In this document: piece after piece, positions 8,646 through 28,949 of the stretch
Numbering within the stretch: position 1 is the stretch's first letter
How the letters are laid out: each line of letters starts with the position of its first letter
DNA from: Paenibacillus terricola
GTDB lineage: Bacteria > Bacillota > Bacilli > Paenibacillales > Paenibacillaceae
Assembly: GCF_014779765.1 (NCBI RefSeq)
Contig: NZ_JACXZA010000001.1
Span: forward strand, 1,426,001 to 1,490,000
Length of the DNA: 64,000 bases
Direction of reading: 5' to 3'
The notes under the pieces: model-generated
What the model was told of the DNA's origin: nothing
Seen by the model: the letters and a program-made list of their open reading frames with translations, nothing else
Databases searched by the model: none
Made by a program: the position numbers and the translations under genes

Positions 8646-8761
8646 TCCACGGAGCGTATTTTATGGTATTGTCTGTTGCATAGTCCGTTTAATAATGGTA
8701 TTCTATTTATCCTTTTTAAATAGTTACGGTTAGTAAAGACAAACATTTGATGGAGGTAGTT

Positions 8762-10849
8762 ATGTCCGTTCACAGCATTCATCCGGAGGAAGAGCAGCGG
8801 CTAACCCACACTCTTCAAGAAATCGATCGGCAGTTAGGCGGGATCGGTCCCCGGTATCTTGGCAACGACTACACCGAGCAAGTGCTCGACGCGACGCGCG
8901 AGGAGCGTCGTCAACGGCTGGAAGTATCGGCGAGAGAGCCGTATTTTGGCCGTATCGATTATAAGCATGAGAAGGACAGTGATGTGAAGCCGCTTTACAT
9001 TGGCAAAGCCGGCGTAGGCGATGACGAGGGAGTTGACCCGCTCGTCATCGATTGGCGTGCGCCGATCGCAAGCTTGTTCTATTCGTTCAGCGGCGGGGAA
9101 AGTCCGGTGACGTACGAATCGCCTGAGGGTGAAGAGACGGGCGAAATCATGCTGAAGCGCAATATCCTCGTACGCCAGCGTGAACTTGTTCGCGTGGTCG
9201 ACAGCTATGTGCGTGGCGCGGACAACGTTGGGGCGTCCGATGAGTTTCTGTTGTACCGTCTCGGCGAATCAAAAGACAATAAGCTGCGCGACATCGTGTC
9301 AACGATTCAAGAGGAGCAGGACAACATTATTCGTGCCGAGCGTAACAAGGCGCTATTCATTCAAGGGGTAGCGGGCTCGGGTAAAACAACGGTAGCGCTC
9401 CATCGTCTCGCATATCTGCTGTATCGATATGCGGGCCGGATCGCGGCGAACCGCATGATCATTTTTGCACCGAACACCATGTTCCTCGATTATATATCCG
9501 GCGTTCTGCCAGAGCTTGGGGTTGGCGATATCGCGCAAACAACGTTTGCGGATTGGTCAATAGCACTGCTGGATCATGAAGTGAAGCTCGTGAGCGCTGC
9601 AGATACGCTTGAGCATTGGTTCGAGGAGAAACGTACGCAAGTTGAACGTGATGAAGCGCCTGGTCGATACAAGGGACGTGCAGCGTTTCGTGAACTGCTA
9701 GATGAGAAACTGAAGGACGTGGAACGGAGAATGGCTCCGGATGTGCCGTTCGAACCGCATCCAGGTCTTACCTTGTCGCCTGTCCGTATCCGCGAATGGT
9801 TCGAGACCGATTATGGCGGCGACGAACCACTAATGAAACGCCGCGAACGTCTGGCCAGCCGGATGAAGCGGTGGCTGGAATCGGAGTGGAAGGAACGTAG
9901 GCTAACCGATAAGGCAGCGAAGTCGAAGGCAAACTCCAAGCTGAACGCTTATGTAAAGAAAATGCCATCCTACAGCGCACCGCAGCTGTATCGCACTTTG
10001 TTTGATGGCAAGGATGCTCATGCGGATGTGCCGAAGGCAATTGCCAAGCGGACGGTGCAGCAGCTGAAAGCCGGCGTCGTCGATCCGGAGGATTTGGCAC
10101 CGCTTGTATATTTGCACATTCGAATGTATGGTCTCGACACGCCGATGTTCGACCATATCGTCATTGACGAAGCGCAGGACTACTCGCCGATGCAGCTTGA
10201 GGCGCTGGCGCTGTGCCAACGCATGCCTTCGCTTACCGTACTGGGCGACTTGCAGCAGGGTATTCATGATTATGCTGGCGTTCGCCGCTGGAGCGAGCAG
10301 ATGGATCTGTTTGATTCATCGATTGTCGGGTATTACGAGCTCGATCGCAGTTATCGCTCAACCATGGAAATTATCGAGTTCGCGAACCACGTGTTAGCTG
10401 GTATGGATGGCGGCGTGAAGCCGGCGACTCCGGTGTTCCGGAGCGGTGAACCTGTGGATGTGATTCCATGTGAAGAAACTTCATGGGAATCTACGTTGCT
10501 GGCATCTGTACAGGCGATGCTTGGTACGGGAGTCTATCAGACTGTAGCGGTAATTGGACGTACGGCTAAGGAATGCGAAGCGATCTATAACGTGCTGCAG
10601 GATGCGAGTCTTACTCCATCCTTGGTTCAAAGCAAGCAGCCCGCCTATAAGGGCGGTCTGACGGTTGTCCCTGTCTACCTGTCCAAAGGACTTGAGTTTG
10701 ACGCAGTGGTGATTGCAGATGCTGGGGAAGAGGCATATCGCGAAGGTGATGCGAAGCTGCTTTACGTTGGTTGCACGCGTGCGCTTCACAAGCTGCAGCT
10801 GCTTCATCGCGGTGCATTGACGCCGCTCGTGAAGATTGATAATAACTAA
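8762..10849 (+). CDS. helD: RNA polymerase recycling motor HelD (UvrD/Rep-like ATPase)
   Basis: About 695 residues. An N-terminal helical arm is followed by the HelD-specific block PLVIDWRAPIASLFYSF, Walker A GVAGSGKTTVALHR at about residues 202-215, Walker B VIDEAQDYSPMQ, and the C-terminal motif VVPVYLSKGLEFDAV with YVGCTRALHKL. In B. subtilis HelD removes stalled RNA polymerase from DNA and promotes recycling. It acts as a free cytoplasmic protein on RNA polymerase. ATG 8762 is five bases after GGAGG; an in-frame TTG/ATG just upstream lies inside that site. It is a single gene with its own terminator. Confidence 0.95.
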   Translation: MSVHSIHPEEEQRLTHTLQEIDRQLGGIGPRYLGNDYTEQVLDATREERRQRLEVSAREPYFGRIDYKHEKDSDVKPLYIGKAGVGDDEGVDPLVIDWRAPIASLFYSFSGGESPVTYESPEGEETGEIMLKRNILVRQRELVRVVDSYVRGADNVGASDEFLLYRLGESKDNKLRDIVSTIQEEQDNIIRAERNKALFIQGVAGSGKTTVALHRLAYLLYRYAGRIAANRMIIFAPNTMFLDYISGVLPELGVGDIAQTTFADWSIALLDHEVKLVSAADTLEHWFEEKRTQVERDEAPGRYKGRAAFRELLDEKLKDVERRMAPDVPFEPHPGLTLSPVRIREWFETDYGGDEPLMKRRERLASRMKRWLESEWKERRLTDKAAKSKANSKLNAYVKKMPSYSAPQLYRTLFDGKDAHADVPKAIAKRTVQQLKAGVVDPEDLAPLVYLHIRMYGLDTPMFDHIVIDEAQDYSPMQLEALALCQRMPSLTVLGDLQQGIHDYAGVRRWSEQMDLFDSSIVGYYELDRSYRSTMEIIEFANHVLAGMDGGVKPATPVFRSGEPVDVIPCEETSWESTLLASVQAMLGTGVYQTVAVIGRTAKECEAIYNVLQDASLTPSLVQSKQPAYKGGLTVVPVYLSKGLEFDAVVIADAGEEAYREGDAKLLYVGCTRALHKLQLLHRGALTPLVKIDNN

Positions 10850-22692: not shown

Positions 22693-24624
22693 GTGTCGGC
22701 AGGAATGAGTTTAAACATATTCATCCGGATTTTTCTGATCATAGCGACTATCTTCCTGATCTTGCCGAATCCCGCGGGAGCATACCCGGCTTCGGCAGAT
22801 TCTTCAATCTCATCCTGGCAGATCAAATGGGAGACGAAAGCGGATCGGCTTGCAGTGCCCGATCAGGCGTTGAAAGCTGATGGGTGGCAGGACATACAGG
22901 CATCGGAGCCGGCAGTATCCAAACCGGAACATGCGGTGTCCGCATGGATCCGAATCAAGCTTCCCGAATTCGGAAAGAACCAAGGGGTGTTCTTTCATTC
23001 GATTTATGCGCAGAACATCACCGTTTTTCTGGGTGGGGAAGAGGTCTTTCATTCGGAACGCAAACATTGGTTCGATCTGAACCGCGTTTTGATTCCGCTT
23101 GAGAATTATAATACCGGCCAAGAGCTAGTCATGCATCTGGAAAGCCAAACGGACAGATTGGGCCTCGGACGCGGAATTAATATCTCGGATTACCAGGATC
23201 TCATGCGTTTGTACGCGAAATTCGATTTACTCGACATCATCTTGGGCAGCGCTTTTGTATTCATCGCCTTTGTCATGCTCGTATGCTCGGTTTTTCTCGA
23301 TCGGAATCTGTTGAAGATCTGGCTCGCGCTGTGCTTTATCATTCTGCCGATCGGCGGGTTATTGATCGGGTACTCGCCGTTCCTGTACACCTTCTACGGA
23401 GAGTACGGTTTCATTTATCAAGGGATGTTCGATCTGTCTTTATACTTGTTCTTGCCGTCCTTGATGATATTTTTTGAGCTGTTGTTCGGAAGCGGCTATC
23501 GAGGCATCGTCAAGCATTTCCGCCGGCTCCAGATCGCCTATTCCAGCTTTGGAATCATTGCGTTGACCGTCAACTGGGCGTCGGTTTATGCGTTTCAGCA
23601 CTTTTACTTTTTCGTATCGGTTACGTTTATCGGCATGATCATGCTGGCCCAATTTATCCTGATAATCATCATTCTGGTCAGGCAACTGTGGAATCGTAAT
23701 ATCGATTCGATTATCCTCTCTATCGGATTGGCTATTTTTGCATCGGTCAGCGTGGCGGAATTGTTGAAATTCTACGCGTCTTCCAAGACGTACGACCTGT
23801 CGTGGTGGAAATGGGGGCTGGTTGCCTTCGTGCTATCGCTCATCGTGCTGCTCGGGCGTCGAATCTCCTATCAACATAAATTGATCATTACCTACTCGCG
23901 GGATTTGGAAAATTACAACTCCGAGCTGCAGCGTTCGGAGAAAATGGAGATTATCAGCCAGCTAGCGGCTTCCGTAGCGCACGAGGTCCGCAACCCGCTT
24001 CAGGTCACGCGCGGCATGCTGCAAATACTCGAGAAACGCCACGTCATCGCGCCGAATACCGAAAACTTTTACAAGCTTGCCATCGACGAGCTTGACCGAG
24101 CTTCGACGATCATTACCGATTTCCTTACCTTTGCGAAGCCGCAGATGGAACAGGTGCACGAATTGGATTTAGCGGATGAATTCAAGCACGTGGAAGGCAT
24201 TATCGTCCCCCTGGCCAACCTTCAGGGCGGCCGCTTGGAGATGAGCGTGCCTCGTTCGCTGCGGATCATAGGTAATTCCTCGAAGTTGAAGCAGGCATTG
24301 ATTAACATCATTAAGAATAGCATCGAAGCGCTGGAAGGCTCCGGCGTCGTGAAGATTTGGGCATACGAGGAACGCGAACAGGTCGTCATTCATATTGCGG
24401 ACAGTGGCGCCGGGATGGATGAGCGTATACTCGAAAGGTTGGGGGAACCATATTTCACCAACAAAACCAAGGGAACCGGTCTTGGGCTCATGGTGACGTT
24501 CAGGATCATCGAGGTCATGCAGGGGACGATAAAATTCAAGAGTCAGAAGGGCGTCGGCACCGAAGCGATGATTCGTTTCCCGGCTGCGCGCTATATAGAA
24601 ACAAACGCGAAGGTCTCTATATGA
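22693..24624 (+). CDS. Multi-span membrane sensor histidine kinase
   Basis: 643 residues. A signal-like N-terminal span is followed by an extracellular beta-rich domain (about 35-175; AVSAWIRIKLPEF, GVFFHSIYAQNITVFLGG), about seven membrane spans (180-390) and a short coiled coil. The H-box AASVAHEVRNPLQVTRG has His430, and the ATPase domain contains NIIKNSIEAL, DSGAGMDERIL and KGTGLGLMV. The layout resembles 7TMR-DISM-type receptors. No response-regulator gene is adjacent, so it is an orphan. GTG 22693 and ATG 22705 are both possible starts. It is convergent with the RiPP precursor gene 126 bp away and is a candidate receptor for that product, but this rests on position only. Confidence 0.9.
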   Translation: MSAGMSLNIFIRIFLIIATIFLILPNPAGAYPASADSSISSWQIKWETKADRLAVPDQALKADGWQDIQASEPAVSKPEHAVSAWIRIKLPEFGKNQGVFFHSIYAQNITVFLGGEEVFHSERKHWFDLNRVLIPLENYNTGQELVMHLESQTDRLGLGRGINISDYQDLMRLYAKFDLLDIILGSAFVFIAFVMLVCSVFLDRNLLKIWLALCFIILPIGGLLIGYSPFLYTFYGEYGFIYQGMFDLSLYLFLPSLMIFFELLFGSGYRGIVKHFRRLQIAYSSFGIIALTVNWASVYAFQHFYFFVSVTFIGMIMLAQFILIIIILVRQLWNRNIDSIILSIGLAIFASVSVAELLKFYASSKTYDLSWWKWGLVAFVLSLIVLLGRRISYQHKLIITYSRDLENYNSELQRSEKMEIISQLAASVAHEVRNPLQVTRGMLQILEKRHVIAPNTENFYKLAIDELDRASTIITDFLTFAKPQMEQVHELDLADEFKHVEGIIVPLANLQGGRLEMSVPRSLRIIGNSSKLKQALINIIKNSIEALEGSGVVKIWAYEEREQVVIHIADSGAGMDERILERLGEPYFTNKTKGTGLGLMVTFRIIEVMQGTIKFKSQKGVGTEAMIRFPAARYIETNAKVSI

Positions 24625-24640
24625 CCTTCGCGTTTGTTTG
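24599..24640. terminator. Terminator overlapping the histidine kinase stop
   Basis: AAACAAACGCGAAGGTC, loop, GACCTTCGCGTTTGTTT: a perfect 17-bp stem. The kinase stop codon lies in the loop. It could also stop transcription from the precursor gene. Confidence 0.88.
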
Positions 24641-24749: not shown

Positions 24750-24983
24750 TTACCAAGTACTGAGTTCGCTTTCCGTTGTAGCGGTGTCACCCGGATTCGG
24801 AGGGATGACGAGCGCGAGCTTGGAAGGCGTTTCTTCGATGACGACCAGTTCCACGTCTTCCGGCAAAGTCAGATTGAAAGCTTCTTTCAACGCTGCTTTG
24901 GGGTCCGCCAGCAATTTGGCTTTGAAAGATTCGTCGGACCATGCTTTCTCGATAATCTGTTGCTGCAACTCTTGTTCAGACAT
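24750..24983 (-). CDS. NHLP-type RiPP precursor peptide with C-terminal Trp
   Basis: 77 residues. Positions 1-62 match the nitrile-hydratase-like leader peptide pattern: an initial helix (SEQELQQQIIEKAWSDESFK), the hallmark AKLLADPKAALKEAFN, then LPEDVELVVIEETPSKLALV and IPPNP. The tail of about 15 residues (NPGDTATTESELSTW) is the presumed core: rich in Thr, Ser and acidic residues, without Cys, and ending in Trp next to the stop codon. The Gly-Gly end usual in this leader family is missing. GAGGTG lies seven bases before the ATG. Upstream on the same strand are an isoprenoid-synthase-like enzyme and a methyltransferase. The leader family is confident; the modification is inferred. Confidence 0.88.
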   Translation of the reverse strand: MSEQELQQQIIEKAWSDESFKAKLLADPKAALKEAFNLTLPEDVELVVIEETPSKLALVIPPNPGDTATTESELSTW

Positions 24984-25187
24984 CGGGCTGCACCTCTTTA
25001 ATAGGAATATACTACCATGAAAAAGTTTATCACTATTATTAGGACAAATCTACCATGAATCGCTAGAATGTGACAATTATTGCGCTGAAAAAAGGGAAAT
25101 TTGACGGAAACCTCCGCTGCCGATCGTGCTGTTGTCATCATCCAATGCCACTTTTCCGGCAAATTTTCAACATCGTTATTTAGCATG
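24984..25187 (-). promoter_or_regulatory. Leader of the precursor gene: direct repeats and a hairpin
   Basis: CTACCATGAA occurs twice, at 25013-25022 and 25051-25060, 38 bp apart. TTTCCGGCAA (25153-25162) and TTGCCGGAAA (25192-25201) form a perfect 10-bp stem covering the stop of the upstream enzyme gene. No U-tract follows. A 204-bp gap suggests that the precursor has its own promoter, but no strong -35/-10 pair is evident. Confidence 0.5.
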
Positions 25188-26129
25188 TTAATTGCCGGAA
25201 ATGGAAGGTTTATTTTGCGAAAGCCAGTACGTAAATCCGCCACCGAGCAGTTGTAACTTCATTTGGCTTAAATGATCGCCCGCCTCCGTCAGCTTGTCAG
25301 CTAAATGAGAATGGAACGCGGCCAAATGGGGAAGAGAAAGCTCCAGTCTAACAAAAGCCTCGCCATTCGCTTGCGTAATCTGCGAGTAACGGCTTAAGGC
25401 GTTGTCGATGTAGATGGCATTCCTGATATCGGTTCTAGTAATCAGGGAAGGGGACACCGCTTTCTCGGAAGCAATCATGCCGATCAGGCTGTTGGCGTTA
25501 TGCAAGTCGAAGTCCTCTTCCCAATCGGCCCAATCGTCAGACAGTTGCAGCGTAGCCAATACAAGATCGACTGCCTCGGAAACGGCGGGTTCAAGCTCGC
25601 GGCGACCGGCGAGAAGCAAGGCGCCGGTGCTCGCCAATTTGACGGGCGCCGCCTTTTGCGCGAGCTTGGCCGGAGATAGGCTGACGGAAGTACTCTCATA
25701 GGCAACTTCAATGGACCAGTCCGTCACGTAAGAGCGGTAATAGTTCCAAAAAGGGGAGCTGCTTTCAAACATCGCGCGGTACAGGTCCAGCATGCTTAGA
25801 TGAAACAAATTACCAAGTGCCAGCTGTTCTTTCCAATCGGACGGGGCGGTATCCATGAGATCGTCCTGGATGAAAAAATATAGCATGACGAATACGTTGG
25901 CGAGCGACAAATCGCGATAACACCGTGAATCCAACTCTGTAATGGGCTGCATCCAAAACGGAAGCAAGTAGCAGATATGGTTCTTCGTTCCGGAAGGATT
26001 CAGCGGGTTGAAGGCTTGCAAATATTCGCGCCCTTTGTCATTTAGCGGTGCCGGGAAGGCATCGATCAGCCGTTCCGCTTCCCGGAACACGTGGGCAAGT
26101 TCATGTTCGTAATCGGATCTCCATGACAT
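25188..26129 (-). CDS. ComQ-like class I isoprenoid synthase
   Basis: 313 residues, nearly all helical. Two aspartate-rich motifs are at the spacing expected for polyprenyl/terpene synthases: FFIQDDLMDTAP (Asp89, Asp90, Asp93) and LQLSDDWADWEEDFDLH (Asp198, Asp199). Such motifs bind Mg-diphosphate substrates. In B. subtilis ComQ has this fold and attaches a prenyl group to Trp of the ComX pheromone. Here the next gene is a peptide precursor ending in Trp, so peptide prenylation is the attractive inference; a small-molecule terpene synthase is the alternative. It lies 27 bp after the methyltransferase gene, in one operon. GGGAGG precedes the ATG. Confidence 0.72.
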   Translation of the reverse strand: MSWRSDYEHELAHVFREAERLIDAFPAPLNDKGREYLQAFNPLNPSGTKNHICYLLPFWMQPITELDSRCYRDLSLANVFVMLYFFIQDDLMDTAPSDWKEQLALGNLFHLSMLDLYRAMFESSSPFWNYYRSYVTDWSIEVAYESTSVSLSPAKLAQKAAPVKLASTGALLLAGRRELEPAVSEAVDLVLATLQLSDDWADWEEDFDLHNANSLIGMIASEKAVSPSLITRTDIRNAIYIDNALSRYSQITQANGEAFVRLELSLPHLAAFHSHLADKLTEAGDHLSQMKLQLLGGGFTYWLSQNKPSISGN

Positions 26130-26156
26130 CGTATCCTGGTCCTCCCTGATGGATAA

Positions 26157-27002
26157 TCAAATGCGTTGAAACGATAAGGCGAACATGCCGGCCCCATAGG
26201 AGAAAGACTTCTCTCTAAGCCAGTGGTTCAATTCCTGCTTTCGCTCATCGGACAGATGATCGCTTTGCATGATCCGGGTCACAGTTTCCATGTAGCGGTG
26301 CATCAGCCGCTTCGTTTCGCCGTCTTCAGCCAGGATGCGATAAGGCTGCAGCTTCGTTCGCCAGCCACCGAAGGCCGCCGTTAATTCAACCAGCCGATTG
26401 CCGACTGGCTTCGGGAAGCGATCCAGCAGCGGCTTGCGCGAAGCCCGGAATAACGATTCGAATCGAGGCAGGCAGTCAGCGGGCAAGGGACCGGTTGCGT
26501 CGTCGTCCAAATCGATGACGATGATCAAGGAATCGGCATGGGTAACGGTTCGCAGCCAAGTCAGAAAATGCCCGAAGTCAGGGAGATGTAGGGCGACCAG
26601 CCTAGCGATGACGACATCGAACGGCTCGGCCCATGGCGTCCGTTCCCGATAATCCGAATTAACAAATTGCAGGCCTGGTGCGGTTCTTGCCGCAGCAAAA
26701 CGGTAAATGCGTTCGTCCTTCTCGAGACCGATGCAACTTAAGTGCGGGTAGTCCTGTTTGACCGCCTCCAAATAGGCACCGTTTCCGCAGCCAATATCGA
26801 GTACGGACGAAGCAACTTGAAGCGGCTCATGCAGGACCAGCGAACGCTCGCGCTCATAGAAGAGCTGCACGGTCAGAGAAAGCATATCGTTGAACAACTT
26901 CGTAGAATCGTCAATGCCCAGCGTTACCAGCTCCTTATCGGCTATATGTTTGACTAGATTAAGTATAAGGTGAAGGATGCGTTCGAAGTAGGTCCGGTAC
27001 AT
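26157..27002 (-). CDS. Class I SAM-dependent methyltransferase of the RiPP cluster
   Basis: 281 residues. An N-terminal helical region of 60 residues precedes the SAM fold, with motif I VLDIGCGNGAYLEA (residues 67-80), the acidic residue after beta 2 (CIGLEKDE) and FDVVIARLVALHLPDF as the post-III region. The substrate is unknown. As first gene of the operon with the isoprenoid-synthase-like gene and the RiPP precursor, it may methylate the peptide or the isoprenoid. GGAAAG is a weak ribosome site eight bases before the ATG. Confidence 0.85.
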   Translation of the reverse strand: MYRTYFERILHLILNLVKHIADKELVTLGIDDSTKLFNDMLSLTVQLFYERERSLVLHEPLQVASSVLDIGCGNGAYLEAVKQDYPHLSCIGLEKDERIYRFAAARTAPGLQFVNSDYRERTPWAEPFDVVIARLVALHLPDFGHFLTWLRTVTHADSLIIVIDLDDDATGPLPADCLPRFESLFRASRKPLLDRFPKPVGNRLVELTAAFGGWRTKLQPYRILAEDGETKRLMHRYMETVTRIMQSDHLSDERKQELNHWLREKSFSYGAGMFALSFQRI

Positions 27003-27370: not shown

Positions 27371-27718
27371 ATGAGTTACACGTTGATGTTGTTCGAGAGC
27401 CATGAAGATTTTGAGGCAAGAAAGGATCCGGCAAGGCAGGAACAATATTTGGCAGGATGGAGGCATTATACACGTGCTATGCAGGAGGCTGGAATTGTCG
27501 TGTATGGTGCAGGTCTCTACGCGCCAGAAACAGCTGCAACGATGAAGCGGCATGGCGGCGAGACGGTCGTTCAGGACGGTCCGTTCGCTGAGACGAAAGA
27601 ACAGCTCGGCGGAATTATGGTGATTGATGTTCCAGACATAGACACTGCATTAGAGTGGGCGGCTCGAGCACCTGTCGCTACGGTTGAGGTTAGACAGAAC
27701 ATTCCACAGTTGAAGTAA
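27371..27718 (+). CDS. YCII (DGPF-domain) family protein
   Basis: 115 residues of the YciI-like fold: SYTLMLFESHEDFEAR at the start, AGWRHYTRAMQEAGIVVYGAGL, and the family hallmark VQDGPFAETKEQLGGIMVIDV. DGPF proteins are linked genetically to ECF42 sigma factors, here encoded 7 bp downstream, where they are thought to be targets or partners. The biochemical role is unknown. A strong AAGGAGG precedes the ATG. Confidence 0.92.
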   Translation: MSYTLMLFESHEDFEARKDPARQEQYLAGWRHYTRAMQEAGIVVYGAGLYAPETAATMKRHGGETVVQDGPFAETKEQLGGIMVIDVPDIDTALEWAARAPVATVEVRQNIPQLK

Positions 27719-27725
27719 ATAGGCT

Positions 27726-28949
27726 ATGGAAATTAATCAGGTCATTGAGAAAACAGCGCGTGATGCTTATGGCCGATTGCTCTCTTATATGGCCGTTAAT
27801 TGGCGGGATCTTCAGGCTGTTGAGGATGCGATCGGGGATGCTTTTCTCGCCGCGCTAGAAACTTGGCCTAAGGTCGGTATTCCTGATAAGCCGGAAGCAT
27901 GGCTCGTTACTGCCGCCCATAGGAGGTTAATCGACCGAGCGCGACGAGCTCGTATATCTGAGAATGCGCTGCCGACACTCCATGCCATGTCGGAGGATGC
28001 TCAGTATCTGACTTCGTCTAACGCGGCTTTTCCAGACGAACGGCTGAAGATGATGTTTCTGTGCACGCATCCAACTATTGATGCTGTGATGCGAACGCCT
28101 CTTATGCTGCAGACGGTGCTCGGCATTGATGCAGCTCGAATCGCGTCCGCATTCGTCACTAAGCCTTCCACCATGAGTCAGCGACTTACCCGGGCAAAAG
28201 CCAAAATCCGTGCCGAACGCCTCACTTTTGAAATGCCTGATGCAGAAGAGATTCCAGATCGTCTCGAGCCTGTATTGGAGGCTATCTATGCTGCTTATGG
28301 GAGCGGGTGGGATGAGGCAACAATTGCTGATTCCCCTCGTAAGGGATTGACGGAGGAAGCTATTTATCTAGGAAAGCTGCTTCTTGGATTCGCACCTCGC
28401 GAACCTGAAGTTTACGGTCTTCTGGCTCTTATGCTGCACTGTGAGGCTCGCCGTGCGGCGCGGCATGACGATGAGGGGAACTATATTCCCCTCTCCGAGC
28501 AAGATTGCACGCGATGGGATCAACGTCTCATCATGGAGGCAGAGCATTATCTACATACCGCTTCTCAAGGCGGTCGGATTGGCCGTTTTCAACTTATGGC
28601 TGCGATCCAATCGGTACATGCACATCGTTCATGGACGGGGTGTATCGAGTGGGCTGCCATTGCGCAGTTGTACGAGGGCCTCGTTCGTAATCACCCCACA
28701 CTGGGAGCGATGGTCGGTCGGGCAGCTGCGGTCGCGGAAGCTTACGGACCCGAACACGGAGTTACCTTGTTAGAAGCTATACCGTTTGAAGATGTGGTGA
28801 ACTATCAGCCCTATTGGGCGCTTTCCGGTCATCTGTACAAGCAGATGAATCGCAACGAGGTTGCCCTTGCTGCCTATAGCCGTGCGATTGGACTTAGCAC
28901 CGATAGGTCCGTTCGACAATTTTTAAGCCGACAAGCTTCCGTATTATAA
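27726..28949 (+). CDS. ECF42-type RNA polymerase sigma factor with C-terminal extension
   Basis: 407 residues. Region 2 is NWRDLQAVEDAIGDAFLAALETWPKVG with AWLVTAAHRRLIDRARRAR; region 4 is LMLQTVLGIDAARIASAFVTKPSTMSQRLTRAKAKIR. A helical C-terminal extension of about 220 residues (LLALMLHCEARRAAR, GRIGRFQLMAAIQSVHA, YQPYWALSGHLYKQM) is the tetratricopeptide-like part typical of ECF42. That group has no classical anti-sigma factor and is coupled to DGPF proteins, as here. The ribosome site is weak and lies in the 3' end of the YCII gene. Confidence 0.92.
   Translation: MEINQVIEKTARDAYGRLLSYMAVNWRDLQAVEDAIGDAFLAALETWPKVGIPDKPEAWLVTAAHRRLIDRARRARISENALPTLHAMSEDAQYLTSSNAAFPDERLKMMFLCTHPTIDAVMRTPLMLQTVLGIDAARIASAFVTKPSTMSQRLTRAKAKIRAERLTFEMPDAEEIPDRLEPVLEAIYAAYGSGWDEATIADSPRKGLTEEAIYLGKLLLGFAPREPEVYGLLALMLHCEARRAARHDDEGNYIPLSEQDCTRWDQRLIMEAEHYLHTASQGGRIGRFQLMAAIQSVHAHRSWTGCIEWAAIAQLYEGLVRNHPTLGAMVGRAAAVAEAYGPEHGVTLLEAIPFEDVVNYQPYWALSGHLYKQMNRNEVALAAYSRAIGLSTDRSVRQFLSRQASVL

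Follow-up and report, generated by a model that had tools for sequence, protein, structure and literature searches.

Analysis of a 64,000-nucleotide (nt) stretch of the Paenibacillus terricola genome (assembly GCF_014779765.1, contig NZ_JACXZA010000001.1, positions 1,426,001 to 1,490,000; this whole stretch is hereafter called the window, and positions are counted from its first letter) revealed a relative of the PalQ/PalX/PalP peptide-prenylation system of Paenibacillus alvei accompanied by a methyltransferase gene. In all probability these genes direct the synthesis of a peptide whose final residue bears an isoprenoid chain. We assign a probability of roughly 0.85 to the reading of the locus as a PalQ/PalX/PalP system to which a pathway methyltransferase has been added and whose peptide would be prenylated, released, and sensed by the kinase. 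The PalQ/PalX/PalP core has already been published; the methyltransferase looks like a new addition.

The pal locus of P. terricola

The following features form the locus.

24750..24983, minus strand: palX-type precursor gene; 77 amino acids (aa), NHLP leader, last residue Trp
25188..26129, minus strand: putative palQ-type C-terminal Trp prenyltransferase gene; 313 aa, trans-isoprenyl-diphosphate-synthase fold
26157..27002, minus strand: class I S-adenosylmethionine (SAM) methyltransferase gene; start codon uncertain, conserved part from about residue 30-40
22693..24624, plus strand: palP-type histidine kinase gene; 643 aa, HisKA and HATPase_c domains, convergent with the precursor gene
24599..24639, no strand: inverted repeat with perfect 17-nt arms around a 7-nt loop, found by eye where the palP and palX genes converge; overlaps the palP stop

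The open reading frames (ORFs) confirmed the minus-strand order methyltransferase, enzyme, precursor that the first-pass annotation had proposed, with 27 nt between the methyltransferase and enzyme genes and 204 nt between the enzyme and precursor genes. The precursor matched the NCBIfam model TIGR03793 (leader_NHLP) at 9.3e-20 and 70.3 bits, above the cut-off of 50.9, and its C-terminus reads ESELSTW, with the Trp directly before the stop. The kinase, absent from the gene set annotated at first, belongs to the system. The annotators had also been unaware of any published system composed of these genes. That statement has to be narrowed to the methyltransferase, since a 2023 report had already presented the precursor, the enzyme, and the kinase (PMC10853753). 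In the article text of that report, considered apart from its supplement, the word "methyltransferase" occurs once, the use observed concerns eukaryotes, and a methyltransferase of the pal cluster is not mentioned.

The chemistry of the P. alvei orthologue is proven and supports the earlier proposal of a Trp prenyltransferase of the isoprenoid-synthase fold acting on an NHLP precursor. According to Miyata et al. (2023; PMC10853753), in vitro PalQ prenylates an NHLP precursor on its C-terminal Trp and transfers C5, C10, and C15 chains; nuclear magnetic resonance of the C5 product showed forward attachment to the indole C3 of this Trp with formation of a pyrroloindole. PalQ benefits from the leader but can act without it, activity is lost when residues are appended after the Trp, and PalX is reported to be cut between T72 and D73 (PMC10853753). 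The enzyme encoded in the window shares 42% identity with the apparent P. alvei PalQ (locus L143). The motifs QDDLMD (residues 88-93) and DDWADWEED (198-206) contain the key residues of the first and second aspartate-rich motifs (FARM, D89/D90/D93; SARM, D198/D199/D202), together with Q195. D89, D93, Q195, D198, and D202 aligned with FARM D89/D93, Q197, and SARM D200/D204 of P. alvei PalQ. The window thus resembles the P. alvei locus in its NHLP precursor with C-terminal Trp, its isoprenoid-synthase-fold enzyme, whose FARM and SARM keep the same spacing, and its histidine kinase. It differs from the three published genes (PMC10853753) in having a fourth, the methyltransferase gene, directly upstream of the enzyme gene.

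Searches with the window enzyme gave no match up to E = 1 in Pfam, NCBIfam, or PHROG, the terpene synthase family models of Pfam and NCBIfam included, and its profile matched none of the sequences of solved structures. Foldseek returned nothing under 0.001 (best 1.6e-3), and VIA-align served as the second fold comparison. Among the matches listed, polyprenyl synthases were the closest folds; pentalenene synthase, which shares the superfamily fold, stood at rank 50. A grouping with terpene synthases, which would have spoken against the first annotation, was examined by family models and by fold, and neither pointed to it.

The window kinase matched HisKA (4.6e-12) and HATPase_c (1.5e-20) in Pfam. 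Its hydropathy revealed an N-terminal hydrophobic segment, an extracytoplasmic-like stretch, and several transmembrane-like segments, and across 624 aa it shares 43% identity with the kinase encoded next to palQ at the P. alvei-like locus L143. The kinase is likely to be the receptor for the peptide. The inverted repeat behind it is a possible bidirectional terminator; it was missing from the list of the terminator scan, which gave a weak site at 24728-24703, below shuffled expectation.

Two further features of the window lie apart from the locus. A UvrD-like helicase of 700 aa is encoded at 8747-10849 (+), with partial PADLOC matches to the DRT-associated helicase (2e-18) and GajB (3.4e-16). 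At 27371-28949 (+), a YCII-domain protein is followed by a sigma factor with DUF6596; these genes are divergent from the pal operon and seemingly unrelated to it.

Spread of the system and the precursor C-terminus

Across the family, 326 of 394 genomes gave a match to a profile of 20 enzymes (E <= 1e-8), as did 154 of 246 genomes drawn evenly from the order, three further families being included. Eighty-eight loci were mapped, which after removal of nine duplicates left 79 distinct ones. This is not a random set: it comprises 23 named loci, 21 of the 22 genomes with the methyltransferase (the remaining one being the window, which was inspected directly), one more methyltransferase locus (L007), the other genomes of the genus, and further loci that for the most part scored high. 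L096 and L095 belong to one genome, with palX at a distance of 8-17 kb from palQ, and count here as a single locus.

At 78 of the 79 loci the enzyme is accompanied by both an NHLP precursor and the kinase, a pairing far above chance. Relatives of the enzyme found mostly without a precursor would have refuted the first annotation; this is not what the loci show. The exception, L110, has neither in its 12-kb stretch and carries other genes directly after palQ. These are regulator- and sugar-metabolism-like ORFs on the other strand (L110:5637-11141; GntR, ROK, NanE, and sialidase by eye), and they suggest an insertion or rearrangement after palQ. With L096/L095 and L110 left out of the convergence count, as of the gap counts, the kinase gene was convergent on palX at 76 of 77 loci; at the remaining one, L139, it lies upstream. 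Two palP-type kinases occur at L032, L033, L100, and L140, one of them between palQ and palX, and 24 of the 79 stretches have two ORFs matching the kinase model.

Ninety-one precursors were detected and 90 counted, L143 being left out because its precursor continues in another frame after DNVRRF. This P. alvei-like precursor (L143:6274-6559) equals the published peptide up to that point and then runs in the other frame to a later stop, a strain difference or a sequencing error. The exact published P. alvei core octapeptide occurs in none of the 394 family genomes. In all 90 counted precursors a Trp stands at or near the C-terminus, at most three residues away from it (59 as the last residue, 26 at -1, four at -2, and one at -3). 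In the 13 positions before it the commonest residue at any one position is found in at most 32 of the 90. The lack of a conserved C-terminal aromatic residue, which would have counted against the first annotation, was thus not observed. If the window peptide is cut like P. alvei PalX, its mature core is perhaps the last seven residues, ESELSTW.

As a control, NHLP loci were taken from 250 genomes drawn from the class. In the family of the window, 21 of 22 such loci have the enzyme in the 1.5-kb flank and all 22 a near-terminal Trp; the locus with no enzyme in view (L151) lies at a contig end. In other families nine loci had no enzyme in view, and none of the ten precursors detected at eight of them has a near-terminal Trp. 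The 22 include both NHLP loci of the window's genome, one of them from a separate search; the second NHLP place of genome G151 stood outside the set, and L173 gave no ORF match.

Both NHLP matches in the window's genome lie beside a palQ. The second complete locus (L034; G000:C15:135435-136782) has a convergent kinase and no methyltransferase; its palQ is 34% identical to that of the window, and its precursor ends in FIWV, with Trp penultimate. On the palQ tree, four separate groups, this locus among them, have precursors in which further residues follow the Trp. At L035 (7302-8781) five tandem palX genes follow one palQ, and the last residues after their Trp are V, I, L, F, and T, as if diversified.

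The methyltransferase at pal loci

The methyltransferase matched Methyltransf_25 in Pfam (1.4e-9), has the SAM motif DIGCGNG, and was modelled with a Rossmann-like class I fold (pLDDT 85.6). It represents a distinct subfamily present in 22 of the 394 family genomes, in all 22 at pal loci (E <= 1.2e-58); in the order sample all seven relatives at E <= 1e-20 also sit at pal loci. The two sets overlap, and the window is counted in both. At 19 of the 21 loci with both genes in one stretch, the gap between the methyltransferase gene and palQ is -131 to 28 nt, the negative values coming from a generous choice of start. In three genomes (L033, L100, and L095) the gene lies directly upstream of palX, apart from palQ. 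From this distribution and spacing the methyltransferase looks like a dedicated pathway part of pal loci and may add a second mark to the peptide.

An exactly terminal Trp was found at 22 of 22 loci with the methyltransferase and at 31 of 56 without it (L143 counted as non-terminal; Fisher 3.6e-5). Four independent pairs on supported branches of the palQ tree gave a median p of 1 in the sign test; as the correlation was not significant on the tree, we dropped it as evidence.

The methyltransferase profile was compared with solved structures. The best named match was BpumL (2.1e-11), followed by plant N-methyltransferases (9.1e-11), BamL, the named plantazolicin methyltransferase (7.1e-7), the farnesyl diphosphate (FPP) methyltransferase 24uw (1.7e-6, SAM-binding core only), and LahSB (6uak, 6.4e-5, match confined to the SAM core). 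Among the 50 fold matches listed, only general O-, N-, and S-methyltransferases appeared; LahSB and FPP methyltransferases were not among these 50, which excludes nothing.

Proposed pathway, alternatives, and meaning

In the proposed pathway, PalX would be made with its NHLP leader as a docking site for PalQ. PalQ with Mg2+ would ionise an allylic diphosphate and transfer the chain in forward orientation to the indole C3 of the C-terminal Trp, giving a tricyclic pyrroloindole as reported for P. alvei PalX. The methyltransferase would modify the same product before or after prenylation, unlinked proteases and an unlinked exporter would release a short lipopeptide, and the convergent membrane kinase would sense it and pass the signal on through an unlinked regulator.

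Several observations weigh against this reading. As noticed from the window alone, a protease and an exporter are missing nearby, and none was found conserved across the 79 loci. No response regulator lies beside the kinase in the window, and none was recognised among the 14 commonest neighbour clusters, inspected partly by eye. In 31 of the 90 precursors one to three residues follow the Trp, although P. alvei PalQ rejects such extensions; enzyme specificity may therefore differ between clades. The methyltransferase is dispensable, being absent from 57 of the 79 loci, and the palQ tree requires 12 or more changes in its presence; its link to the terminal Trp also failed on this tree. Locus L011 (G282:C15:48447-48617) retains a stop-bearing remnant directly upstream of palQ, a recent loss of the gene. 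Weaker generic matches (2.7e-21 to 1e-12) occur away from pal loci in many family genomes, and 74 of the 394 match the methyltransferase profile at 1e-12 in all. Finally, co-inheritance was shown, but a common species history would lead one to expect the Mantel similarity as well.

Two neighbours were considered as the missing functions and rejected. An ATP-binding cassette (ABC) cluster at 12 loci proved to be a mixed set, with pairwise identity down to 19% and scattered positions. At L021 (7099-7668) and 20 further loci, a gene for a C92-like protein (permuted papain amidase; Pfam match below the cut-off) lies upstream of palQ in divergent orientation. It could be a protease or mere synteny, and we took it as local synteny; all 21 loci belong to one genus code (g16).

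The mature peptide might instead be antimicrobial or membrane-active, the kinase sensing only stress or the cell's own product and not a quorum signal. This has perhaps one chance in four: antimicrobial peptides do gain activity when prenylated by PalQ in engineered settings (PMC13290415), but the near-constant convergence of one kinase type on palX, with no immunity or export gene conserved, brings the system closer to ComX/ComP signalling.

Among targets of the methyltransferase, a C-terminal methyl ester is our leading single guess, though less likely than not. Methylation of nitrogen, at the free N-terminus of the mature core or on the indole, is a less favoured possibility. The matches to BpumL and BamL point that way, and BamL/PznL dimethylates the N-terminus of another ribosomally made and modified peptide (PMC11285071), but the likeness is limited to the SAM core, other methyltransferases score about equally, and the core shows no conservation ahead of the Trp. 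Rather unlikely is C-methylation of the prenyl diphosphate donor, as by FPP methyltransferases, with transfer of the methylated chain by PalQ. Such enzymes work beside partners of the isoprenoid-synthase fold, and the profile did match 24uw; this match, however, is weaker than those to BpumL and the plant N-methyltransferases, and the position of the gene beside palX, away from palQ, in three genomes fits a peptide substrate better. We give very little credence to an accidental neighbour with a separate job: its patchy presence and general class I fold would agree with that, yet its close members are confined to pal loci and keep tight spacing to palQ, or stand beside palX where palQ lies apart. 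That the enzyme is a small-molecule terpene synthase next to an unrelated precursor, as PalQ was once annotated (PMC10853753) and as the distant pentalenene synthase fold match might hint, is rejected because the precursor synteny and the Trp are conserved, and also conflicts with the proven chemistry of the orthologue, the nearest folds, and the separate similarity cluster reported for PalQ (PMC10853753).

The pathway reading places the window beside several known systems. ComX is not known to have an NHLP leader. The ComQXPA system of Bacillus likewise has a Trp prenyltransferase of the isoprenoid-synthase fold, a peptide, and a membrane histidine kinase, but its Trp is internal and its four genes, the response regulator ComA included, lie on one strand (PMC4008528); the window has a convergent kinase gene and no linked regulator. 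In Paenibacillus curdlanolyticus, a com-like locus was singled out as unusual by a census of comQXPA loci (PMC4008528). A C-terminal methyl ester like the one proposed here occurs in aeruginosamide-type linear cyanobactins and LahSB lanthipeptides, and aeruginosamides (AgeMTPT chemistry) combine it with prenylation (PMC11285071, PMC10373908), but the prenyltransferase type and prenylated site differ and Trp is not prenylated. If the ester reading holds, the logic would be that of eukaryotic CaaX processing, C-terminal prenylation followed by carboxyl methylation (PMC10853753), on Trp instead of Cys and with unrelated enzymes. Literature searches on PalQ, NHLP-leader prenylation, Trp prenyltransferases, and Paenibacillus ComX-like signalling turned up no description of a pal locus with a methyltransferase; apart from the PalQ paper and a review they listed a paper on brominated lanthipeptides (PMC11791876). 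That 2026 review repeats the PalQ findings, and the words "methyltransferase", "histidine kinase", and "NHLP" are absent from its main text (PMC13290415).

A recently described peptide-prenylation system is thus widespread in one large bacterial family, with a dedicated methyltransferase as the candidate second tailoring step. Some natural relatives of PalQ have precursors that extend one to three residues beyond the Trp, an arrangement rejected by the single PalQ characterised so far; the system offers new enzymes for peptide lipidation and is a common, little-studied candidate for signalling. It is conceivable, though doubtful, that bacteria of this order produce a lipopeptide signal with both a C-terminal prenyl-Trp and a methyl ester, as an independently evolved counterpart of eukaryotic CaaX prenylation and carboxyl methylation. 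The methyl would then mask the terminal charge, and in some clades the polarity of the peptide, perhaps also who hears the signal, would shift by a single gene gain or loss.
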